Source: Candidatus Nomurabacteria bacterium
GTDB lineage: Bacteria > Patescibacteriota > Minisyncoccia > Phycocordibacterales > UBA9973
Length of the DNA stretch: 39,544 nucleotides
Assembly (NCBI GenBank): GCA_028286485.1
Contig: JAQBRM010000030.1
Span: 1-39,544, forward strand
Direction of reading: 5' to 3'
The notes under the pieces are model-generated. The model was given only the letters and a program-made list of their open reading frames with translations, did no database searches and was not told the DNA's origin. Of the stretch, positions 23,589 through 33,297 are shown in pieces; the first letter of the stretch is position 1, and the number at the start of each line of letters is the position of its first letter. The translations under genes were made by a program, and so were the position numbers.

Positions 23589-25775
23589 ATGGCAAAGAAA
23601 CAATTCCCCAAGAAACAAGCTCCGCAAAAGAATCCGCCGCGCAACAACCACGTAGTCATCGGGCTACTGCTTATTTTGCTGGGATTGATCACATTAGGAG
23701 GAATCATTGGCACGGCAGGGGTAGCGGGGTTTGTGGTCGCTCAAGGCGCTGATGTGCTTTTGGGTACCGGCAAGTTCATTATTCCCATTATTTTCATTAC
23801 CGCCGGGGTATTAGTCATGCGTAAACGCAGCCTCGATGCGACCACGCGGGAAATCATTACCGGCACACTGGGACTACTGGCATTATTGACGCTACTCTCT
23901 TTATATAATGACAGTTGGGGTGGTTTAGTCGGTCATTTGCTGGCTACACCATTACTGGGTACCTTTGATATCCTCTTTACCACGCTTATCTTGATGTTTA
24001 TTACTGCTACCTCATTTATTCTCTTTTTCGATCGTACACCCAACCTTTTCCCCTTCTTCAGTATGTTGGTGGCCCGTATTCGCGCCCTGTTCACCAAGAA
24101 GGAGCCTTCGTATGAAGTTGAGACCACGATGGATGAACCGACAGAAGACTACCTTCCGGCCACTGCTCCAATGATGCCAGAAAAAAGTGTTGAGCAACCA
24201 AAGACGCCGAAAGAACTGACCGTCAATGATGCCTCAGTTGGTGGTGAGCTCATTATCGATCCCAAGAAGCGCGCCTCATTCGGCACCTATACTCCTCCCC
24301 CCTTGAGCCTGCTTGAAGGTGACCGCGGCAAGGCGAACGTCGGTGATGTCAAAGCCAATGCCAACATTATTCGTCGCACCCTCATGAACTTCGGCATTGA
24401 GGTGGAAATGGATGAAGTCACCATCGGACCGACCGTCACGCGCTATGCCTTGAAGCCCGCTCAAGGAGTGAAGCTGTCCCGTATTGTCGGCTTGCAGAGT
24501 GACTTGGCCTTGGCCTTGGCTGCTCATCCGATCCGTATCGAGGCGCCGATCCCCGGCAAGAGTTTGGTGGGTATTGAAATCCCGAACAAGACCAAAGCAA
24601 CGGTTGGTTTGGCCAGCCTGCTGTCTGACCCTTCATTTGCCCAAGACAAGAAGCCTCTCGTGGCTGCCTTGGGCCGAAATATTGCCGGCAAGCCCGTGTT
24701 GAAAAGCATTGCCAAGATGCCACACTTGCTCATCGCCGGTACGACCGGCTCCGGTAAGTCAGTTACTATTCACGCCATCATTACATCGCTCCTCTATCGC
24801 CATGGGCCGGATCAGCTGCGATTTATTTTTGTGGACCCGAAGCGTGTTGAGCTCACGCTCTACAACTCTATTCCCCACCTCCTCACGCCGGTCATCACTG
24901 AACCGAAGAAAGCCATCCTCGCCTTGAAGTGGGCGGCAACGGAAATGAATCGCCGTTACGATATTCTCGAAGGTGAAAGTGTTCGTGATATTGATTCGTA
25001 TCATAAGTTGTACGAAAAGGAACTAGCAAAGCCTGAAACAACCCAGGACCGCATGCCATACATCGTCATCATCATTGATGAGTTGGCCGATATCATGCAA
25101 GCCTACCCTCGTGAACTCGAAGCCGCTATCGTGCGCTTGGCGCAAATGTCCCGCGCCGTCGGCATTCACCTTATTCTCTCCACCCAACGTCCGGAAGTGA
25201 ATATCATTACCGGCCTTATCAAGGCCAACGTGCCGTCCCGTATCGCCCTTCGTGTGCCGACAGGCATCGACTCCCGTACCATTCTGGATACCACTGGCGC
25301 CGAGAAACTATTGGGTCAAGGAGATATGCTGGCCGTAGTGGGGGGTGACAGCCAGGCAGAACGATTGCAGAGTGCATATATCACTGAAGACGAGGTCAAA
25401 AATGTGGTAAAATACCTCAAGAACGCATTCAAAGATGATGTACGAGATACCATTGAACTGAGCGGTACCGTAGGCGGTGGAGGCGACAAAACCATCTTCG
25501 GAGCCGACATTGGTGACGAAGAAGACGATGAACTGTATGAGGAAGCCCGCACTTGCGTGATGGAAGCCGGCAAAGCCTCAACTTCCTATATTCAACGCAA
25601 GCTGAAAGTCGGCTATGCCCGCGCTGCCCGCCTGATCGACCTGCTCGAAGAACGCGGCATTGTCGGACCGGCTGATGGCGCCAAGCCTCGCGAAGTACTG
25701 ATTGGATCCCGCCCCGCCTCAATGGACACTGCGGGGCACGATTCTGCTGAATCGGACGCATCAGCGAACTACTAA
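23589..25775 (+). CDS. ftsK: DNA translocase FtsK/SpoIIIE
   Basis: N-terminal TM helices, Walker A AGTTGSGKSV, PHLLTPVITEPKKA, C-terminal gamma wHTH (STSYIQRKLKVGYARAARLIDLLEERGIVGP). Confidence 0.97.
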   Translation: MAKKQFPKKQAPQKNPPRNNHVVIGLLLILLGLITLGGIIGTAGVAGFVVAQGADVLLGTGKFIIPIIFITAGVLVMRKRSLDATTREIITGTLGLLALLTLLSLYNDSWGGLVGHLLATPLLGTFDILFTTLILMFITATSFILFFDRTPNLFPFFSMLVARIRALFTKKEPSYEVETTMDEPTEDYLPATAPMMPEKSVEQPKTPKELTVNDASVGGELIIDPKKRASFGTYTPPPLSLLEGDRGKANVGDVKANANIIRRTLMNFGIEVEMDEVTIGPTVTRYALKPAQGVKLSRIVGLQSDLALALAAHPIRIEAPIPGKSLVGIEIPNKTKATVGLASLLSDPSFAQDKKPLVAALGRNIAGKPVLKSIAKMPHLLIAGTTGSGKSVTIHAIITSLLYRHGPDQLRFIFVDPKRVELTLYNSIPHLLTPVITEPKKAILALKWAATEMNRRYDILEGESVRDIDSYHKLYEKELAKPETTQDRMPYIVIIIDELADIMQAYPRELEAAIVRLAQMSRAVGIHLILSTQRPEVNIITGLIKANVPSRIALRVPTGIDSRTILDTTGAEKLLGQGDMLAVVGGDSQAERLQSAYITEDEVKNVVKYLKNAFKDDVRDTIELSGTVGGGGDKTIFGADIGDEEDDELYEEARTCVMEAGKASTSYIQRKLKVGYARAARLIDLLEERGIVGPADGAKPREVLIGSRPASMDTAGHDSAESDASANY
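25711..25759 (+). repeat. In-frame palindromic element, copy 1 (ftsK 3' end)
   Basis: GCCCCGC-CTCAATGGACACT-GCGGGGC-A-CGATTC-TGCT-GAATCG-GACGC; the 21 nt at 25739-25759 are identical to the reverse complement of 32060-32080 in metG. Confidence 0.85.
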
Positions 25776-28648: not shown

Positions 28649-28667
28649 GCTACACTCGTCTAACCCC

Positions 28668-28710
28668 AAAACAAAAAGCCGATTCCCTTTGGGAATCGGC
28701 TTTTTGTTTT
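28668..28710. terminator. Bidirectional terminator between convergent efp and rpsR
   Basis: AAAACAAAAAGCCGATTCCC TTT GGGAATCGGCTTTTTGTTTT. Confidence 0.93.
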
Positions 28711-28711
28711 G

Positions 28712-31764: not shown

Positions 31765-33297
31765 CTATTTATCCAACCGATTGAATAACGGCTTCTCTGG
31801 ACTCTTTTTTTCTTTCACTAATGTAAGAATGGTCTGGGCAGTATTTGGCATAAATGGTTGGAGGAGGAAGCCGATGATGTATAAACGGATCGCGAGATCT
31901 CCAACAATGCGTTGTGCTTCCGGCATGTCGGTTTTGGCCAGCTTGAACGGTTCCTTGTTTTGAATCAGCCAGTCGAGAGAATTTATTTCCCGCCAAATAT
32001 CATCCATAGCGGACTTCAAATCAAAACTTTCTATTTTCTGCGCAAATCCTTCCGGCACCGCGTCCGATTCAGCAGAATCGCGTCGCGTGGTGTCAATTGA
32101 AACGCGACGTTCTAGTAGGTCTTCATCAGTCGGCAGCAGGTAGGACACTTCATAACTCACCACCATTTTCATGATGCGTGAGACTAGGTTGCCCAGACCA
32201 TTGCAAAGATTTGCCGTATAAGCTTCAGCCAGTGATTCCAATGTCATGTCGGCATCTTCAAAAGAGTTCATGTGTCGTAGCAAGTAGTATCGCAAGACAT
32301 CACTGGCCAAATCCCCCGCCACTGCTTGGTATGCTTCAATAACAGCATAGGGATTGATAACATTACCAATTGACTTGGACATTTTTTCTCCGCCGGAATT
32401 AATGAAGCCGTTCACCACAATATGCGCGCTGTTCGGCAGATCAGCTGCAATGAGCATCGCTTGCCACATGGATGATTGCTGGCGGGTATTATCCTTGCCG
32501 CAGTACTGCACAGGTGTACCATTCGTCCAATACTTTTCAAATGTCTCTGTGTTTTCGGGCCAGCCGAGAGTGGAGATGTAGTTCACCAAGGCATCAAACC
32601 AGACATACATGACCTGCGTCTCATCATCCGGCACCGGTACGCCCCACGGCATCTTTTCCGCCACTCGGGAAATAGAAAAATCATGCAATCCGTTTTTAAG
32701 GAATGATTTCATCTCATTGTATCGAAAGTCCGGAATAATAAAATCGGGATGACTATCATAAAACGCTTGCAGCTTGTCTGCCAGTTTCGAATACGCGAAG
32801 AAGTAATTCTCTTCATTGATGTACTCCACCGGTCGTCCGGTGTGAATCAAACAACAATCGTTCTCATCAACTTCCGAGTCTGTTTTTTCCAATTCACAGC
32901 CCGTACAGTACTTTGTCTGATACTGCTTTTTATAAATGTAGCCATTGTCATTAACCTTTTGCCAGAAGGCTTGCGCGGCTGCCACGTGATGCGTATCAGT
33001 AGTACGGATGAAATGTACTTGTGGTGTGATATTCAATAATTCGGCCAAGCCGCGAAACCTCTCCGCGTATCGATCCACATATTCTTGTACGGGAATACCT
33101 TCTTTTTCAGCCGCTTTGTAGAGCTTGGCACCGTGTTCATCGGTACCGGTATTGAAAAAGACATCATAGCCTTGCAGTATTTTGTATCGTGCCACGACAT
33201 CGGCCCGGATGAACTCCATGGCAAAACCAACGTGCGGATCGGCATTCACGTACGGCAAGGTCGTCGTTATATAAAATGGTTTCTGATTGTCCGGCAT
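31765..33297 (-). CDS. metG: Methionine--tRNA ligase
   Basis: FYITTTLPYVNADPHVGFAMEFIRADVVARYKILQGYDVFFNTGTDEHGAK ... VNGFINSGGEKMSKSIGNVINP (KMSKS). Confidence 0.97.
   Translation of the reverse strand: MPDNQKPFYITTTLPYVNADPHVGFAMEFIRADVVARYKILQGYDVFFNTGTDEHGAKLYKAAEKEGIPVQEYVDRYAERFRGLAELLNITPQVHFIRTTDTHHVAAAQAFWQKVNDNGYIYKKQYQTKYCTGCELEKTDSEVDENDCCLIHTGRPVEYINEENYFFAYSKLADKLQAFYDSHPDFIIPDFRYNEMKSFLKNGLHDFSISRVAEKMPWGVPVPDDETQVMYVWFDALVNYISTLGWPENTETFEKYWTNGTPVQYCGKDNTRQQSSMWQAMLIAADLPNSAHIVVNGFINSGGEKMSKSIGNVINPYAVIEAYQAVAGDLASDVLRYYLLRHMNSFEDADMTLESLAEAYTANLCNGLGNLVSRIMKMVVSYEVSYLLPTDEDLLERRVSIDTTRRDSAESDAVPEGFAQKIESFDLKSAMDDIWREINSLDWLIQNKEPFKLAKTDMPEAQRIVGDLAIRLYIIGFLLQPFMPNTAQTILTLVKEKKSPEKPLFNRLDK
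32060..32109 (-). repeat. In-frame palindromic element, copy 2 (inside metG)
   Basis: Minus strand CGTCGCGT-TTCAATTGACACC-ACGCGACG-CGATTC-TGCT-GAATCG-GACGC; ~40/51 nt match with the ftsK copy including 21 identical nt. Confidence 0.85.

Follow-up and report, generated by a model that had tools for sequence, protein, structure and literature searches.

How does metG, the gene for an essential tRNA synthetase, come to carry a palindromic DNA element within its coding sequence, and what becomes of that element in the protein? The locus lies in a 39,544-nucleotide stretch of Candidatus Nomurabacteria DNA (contig JAQBRM010000030.1 of assembly GCA_028286485.1), which is called the window here. A sequence-only reading had placed a second copy of a palindromic element inside metG, at 32058-32110, as two hairpins of 8 bp and 6 bp, and had proposed that it is tolerated as peptide.

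A two-hairpin element inside metG

Sequence, coordinates, peptide and hairpins all confirmed that a palindromic element is present in metG, and that it is one of two copies in the window (Table 1). Its boundaries are tighter than had been suggested, the element proper being 32065-32109 on the minus strand; in that orientation it reads CGTCGCGTTTCAATTGACACCACGCGACGCGATTCTGCTGAATCG, with the two hairpins side by side. The 6-bp second stem is as described, but the first stem has 7 bp and reaches 8 bp only when position 1 pairs with position 29, as is the case here. Folded as a single sequence, the metG copy has an unexceptional energy (z -0.95), so that folding by itself is no evidence, and the significance of the structure derives from repetition and covariation. 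We observed no Rfam 15 family match up to an E-value of 1 at positions 31900-32300 of the window, and membership of a known Rfam family was rejected for this region. The two window copies lie on opposite strands and are 80% complementary over 50 nt. Between two predicted genes elsewhere in the window, positions 28667-28711 form an inverted repeat, perfect over 21 bp and with a 3-nt loop, that resembles a transcription terminator.

Table 1. Features of the two element-bearing genes, in window coordinates
Feature	Positions	Strand	Evidence
ftsK, DNA translocase, host of the second window copy	23589..25775	+	Pfam FtsK_SpoIIIE, FtsK_alpha, FtsK_gamma
Second window copy, in the last codons of ftsK, encoding RPASMDTAGHDSAES; stem 1 GCCCCGC/GCGGGGC	25710..25754	+	Covariance model 61.6 bits, E 2.7e-13 (copy in training set); C-terminus of relatives different and without the element
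metG, methionyl-tRNA synthetase, host gene	31765..33297	-	Pfam tRNA-synt_1g
Palindromic element in metG, encoding RRVSIDTTRRDSAES	32065..32109	-	Covariance model 62.1 bits, E 2e-13 (copy in training set); empty site in five same-genus orthologues
Hairpin 2: CGATTC-TGCT-GAATCG	32065..32080	-	2 of 6 pairs covary (21 and 24 double changes), other 4 invariant
Hairpin 1: stem GTCGCGT/ACGCGAC, 13-nt loop TTCAATTGACACC	32082..32108	-	6 of 7 pairs covary across 51 copies

The metG site is empty in relatives, and the insert is modelled as a loop

MetRS was searched for in 30 relatives, and the comparison was made with the five closest congeners that have sequence across the site. In all five the site is empty: these proteins read DLLEF(D/N)DAVPEDF (DLAEF in one), where the window protein has DLLE-RRVSIDTTRRDSAES-DAVPEGF. 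The corresponding DNA is GAA-TTCGAT-GATGC in the relatives and GAA-[45 nt]-GACGC in the window, an exchange of +45 nt and -6 nt with a net gain of 39 nt, or 13 codons. A clean insertion of about 50 nt, in a multiple of three, had been predicted; the insertion does keep the frame, but it is 45 nt long and replaces 6 nt. A conserved segment of the same length, which would have counted against insertion, is absent from the palindrome-free orthologues, which have two codons there (TTC GAT or similar).

An AlphaFold model of MetRS (25-sequence alignment; mean pLDDT 89.8) places the insert at residues 397-411, and residues 399-411 appear as coil with pLDDT <50 between helices 391-399 and 418-423. 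PDB relatives of MetRS align across this region with gaps. The low-confidence coil and the empty orthologous sites support the idea that the insert is tolerated as peptide, likely in a loop of the anticodon-binding region, and the model supports a disordered loop. The 15-residue peptide is probably kept in the MetRS protein; the predicted tryptic peptide across the junction is DSAESDAVPEGFAQK.

Other copies in this genome, and repeated synthetase sites

Copies in this genome were located through searches and number four: those in metG, ftsK, leuS (contig 18) and ileS (contig 9), which share a single common frame, RRVSxDxTRxDSAES. BLASTN detected the further copies at E-values of 1e-9 to 2e-7. 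The 16-nt hairpin-2 pattern, allowing up to 3 mismatches, gave 12 matches in this genome and 0 for the reversed control; as the pattern is palindromic, each of the four copies is counted twice among the 12. Congeners have no element at the leuS, ileS and ftsK sites either; a few codons are lost next to the insert, and in ftsK the entire C-terminal tail is unlike that of relatives.

Synthetases were entered repeatedly. One congener (G039) carries a copy in a different IleRS loop, and the LeuRS of G035 has a copy shifted in position by a few codons. The IleRS of this genome (G000), of G035 and of G053, the last from another genus, has a copy at almost the identical place, between DIWQ.LK and SVHL, where relatives with an empty site have four or five different residues. 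We read these as probable parallel insertions; a single older insertion that was lost several times, or transfer of the gene, may also account for them. As a separate observation, the IleRS of this genome (L250:976-4458:-, contig 9) has a histidine phosphatase domain embedded in the synthetase (residues 507-689; PF00300, E 5e-32), and this domain is also present in the IleRS of G053 (L342).

A covarying family across Patescibacteria

In an alignment of 51 copies, 99.1% of cells were paired, and 8 of the 13 pairs had changed on both sides (shuffle mean 3.3; 0 of 500 shuffles as high). With the covariance model, copies were found in 56 of the 146 genomes of the same taxonomic family (1 to 17 per genome). 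In a phylum sample, 8 of 380 genomes had copies, strict filters being liable to miss weak ones. Across the order, a looser pattern hit 54 of 397 genomes, some of them probably by chance, with four control matches overall. An exact scan of the species collection yielded 96 loci; among the 80 listed, every named record belongs to Patescibacteria (Nomurabacteria, Yonathbacteria, Taylorbacteria, Kaiserbacteria, Zambryskibacteria, Magasanikbacteria, and others). Viral contigs contained no exact pattern match, and a viral origin of the element was rejected on this ground. The assemblies are metagenomic and partly incomplete. The element is a family spread across Patescibacteria with a patchy distribution. 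At four further loci (L013, L015, L028, L029), hairpin 2 (GATTCTGCTGAATC) is held in common and the neighbouring sequence differs (CCCAGTAGG or similar), which may represent a sister element.

Copies inside genes keep frame, length and orientation

We classified 165 distinct copies, pooled from several searches, by a simple open-frame heuristic on which the classes depend. This gave 32 in-gene candidates: 27 in the main sense frame, 3 antisense, and 2 doubtful ones in other frames. All 27 main-frame sense copies are exactly 45 nt long. Leader and intergenic copies vary between 42 and 49 nt, a difference that would follow if the element is translated without being excised. The antisense copies lie in DnaG, NusA and a sigma factor, and one of the three is 46 nt long. 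Pfam confirmed most in-gene hosts (RecA, FtsK, GatA, UvrB, PGK, FBA, DHFR, CCA-adding enzyme, MsrA, and others), and the host families beyond the four genes of this genome number about 20. Where Pfam recognised the host, about 25 copies are sense and 3 antisense (p 3e-5). The antisense frame that is used also gives a hydrophilic peptide, so stop codons alone do not explain the orientation bias. Among intergenic copies between co-directional genes, 28 are sense and 8 antisense. Scanning 20 loci for RNA genes returned two tRNAs, neither overlapping a copy, and insertion into RNA genes was left unsupported. A PheT-like protein of another genome (G201; L353:294-2717:+) has an NlpC/P60 domain, with the palindromic element near the end of the domain match.

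Many copies stand immediately before start codons

Of the 165 copies, 63 directly precede an ATG, and in 45 of these exactly one nucleotide separates the element from the start codon. Counted by a slightly altered rule, 61 start-codon copies are sense and 0 antisense. The genes behind them, whose N-termini were recognised by eye, include tuf, dnaK, secE, rplK, rplB, rpsS, atpA and atpD. The motif AAGGA is present in the loop of 31 of the 63 start-codon copies and 6 of the 32 in-gene candidates. Among 20 dnaK leaders of one genus, 3 have the element, and the 17 that lack it are A/T-rich with no obvious Shine-Dalgarno sequence. An internal start codon as the cause of the 1-nt spacing was unsupported, as 9 of 11 copies that contain no RTG are spaced likewise, and ATG as a general target motif was rejected, with ATG at that spacing in only 1 of 70 other copies. 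Upstream of the leader copies, the search for a fixed distance to a -10 promoter gave no clear peak. In mainly open-licence literature, we found no prior description of the sense-strand and start-codon preference. Other dnaK leaders, of genus g23 (L364, L365, L362, L373, L376), have unrelated larger palindromes with variable cores, one of which contains GCCGATTCTGCTGAATCGC.

Mobility and Y1 transposases

The Y1 transposase family PF01797 is present in 95 of the 146 genomes of the taxonomic family and at four loci in this genome. Its co-occurrence with the element is weak (43 of 56 element-bearing and 52 of 90 other genomes; odds ratio 2.4, p 0.02, phylogeny uncorrected), and the Y1-positive genomes listed leave out 13 of the 56 that carry the element. 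Three of the four Y1 (IS200/IS605-like) loci of this genome were examined and have no copy nearby. A comparison of filled and empty sites of metG, leuS and ileS revealed no target-site duplication; instead, a variable few codons were removed, a loss that simple transposition does not predict. A GTAG/CGTC tag is not conserved: position 1 varies freely, and positions 2-4, which are in the stem, covary or vary.

Discussion

The element is repeated, its stems covary, its orthologous sites are empty, its frame and length are constrained inside genes, its orientation is biased, and its distribution is patchy. We consider it about 85% probable that it is a non-autonomous mobile palindrome of Patescibacteria, ~45 nt long with two adjacent hairpins, that was inserted in metG and is kept as an in-frame disordered loop. 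In this genome, metG would have received its copy once the lineage had separated from the sampled congeners, and six nucleotides that code for part of a loop would have been replaced. With exactly 15 codons, no stop in the used frame and a hydrophilic peptide, it would keep the synthetase frame, and the insert would form a disordered loop within the anticodon-binding region of MetRS. The element may have moved as DNA by an enzyme encoded elsewhere and acting in trans, and the sense-strand and start-codon bias could come from an RNA-level effect or from transcription-linked insertion.

The closest likeness is to the palindromic elements of Rickettsia and Wolbachia, which also enter unrelated conserved genes in frame, lie between genes as well, and have a patchy copy number. 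Rickettsia palindromic element (RPE) insertions keep the reading frame, and their peptides are reported in solvent-exposed areas (PMC10969869, PMC3767692, PMC2229807). The present element likewise is an in-frame palindrome in unrelated protein genes. Its metG insert is modelled as low-confidence coil between helices. RPEs, however, are ~100-150 bp, which is two to three times the length of this element, and were described in Rickettsia (Rickettsiales) with relatives in Wolbachia; the strong sense bias of the present element and its frequent siting 1 nt before a start codon may set it apart further. We read the element as a separate protein-coding palindrome family of Patescibacteria and not as an RPE member, on the grounds of size and taxon. 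GTAG- and CGTC-tagged REP elements, which bear terminal tags and may use RAYTs (PMC3733652), are likewise short hairpins, often paired and sometimes inside genes, and the CGTC type, as here, has no dedicated transposase; the present element differs in lacking a conserved terminal tetranucleotide tag, in having two unlike hairpins in fixed order with sense bias, and in its absence beside the Y1 loci examined. Bacterial MITEs (Correia/NEMIS, ERIC, RUP; ~100-200 bp) are also small non-autonomous repeats that may be transcribed and fused to genes, but our element is far shorter, has no terminal inverted repeats spanning it, and showed no target-site duplication. Titles and abstracts, mainly of open-licence literature, yielded no earlier account of palindromic repeats, MITEs or REPs in CPR/Parcubacteria/Patescibacteria.

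A palindrome that arose by chance in an ordinary, variable MetRS loop would agree with the usual folding energy, but copies of this 45-nt element, their stems covarying, turn up in unrelated genes and genomes, and orthologues are without it; these repeats and empty sites refute chance or ordinary loop variation, whose probability we take to be negligible. Selection on the peptide, with RRVSxDxTRxDSAES as a functional tag in synthetases and other enzymes, might be suggested by the almost exclusive use of one frame, by the three class I synthetases of this genome that carry it, and by its nearly identical loop position in the IleRS of three genomes, one from another genus. We regard it as very improbable, given that intergenic and leader copies together make up over half of the total, that stem covariation alters amino acids (e.g., GCCCCGC in ftsK), and that most orthologues do without it.

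How the element moves, and what it does before start codons, leave more room for alternatives. A Y1 (HUH) transposase of the IS200/IS605 or RAYT group could mobilise the hairpins, as proposed for REP elements; the two-hairpin anatomy and the frequency of PF01797, with its weak co-occurrence, fit such a mover, but the missing tag, the element-free Y1 neighbourhoods and the element-bearing genomes outside the listed Y1-positive set make it doubtful. A somewhat better case, still short of even odds, can be made for a chiefly functional RNA, that is, a mobile 5'-leader module affecting mRNA stability or translation initiation, with the in-gene copies as side-products. The siting and exclusive sense orientation before ATG, the core genes concerned, the in-gene sense bias and the AAGGA contrast point that way; against it, most dnaK genes of one genus manage without the element, the metG region has no Rfam match, and the AAGGA contrast may stem from subfamilies. 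Within the mobile-palindrome reading, we tentatively propose an RNA-level module that prefers the immediate 5' leader of core genes, 1 nt before the start, and that in genes uses one sense frame to give a disordered 15-residue insert, repeatedly in the same synthetase loops.

In the literature consulted, protein-coding palindromes are known chiefly from Rickettsia and Wolbachia. The wider picture here goes beyond the first reading of the locus: a Patescibacteria-wide family with strong orientation bias and frequent start-codon siting. It offers small genomes, a much smaller element, and enough filled and empty sites for direct tests of frame, orientation and target choice, including the repeated insertions in synthetases, nearly the same IleRS loop in three genomes among them. 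If the start-codon placement is functional, the element would be a mobile leader that changes core-gene expression.
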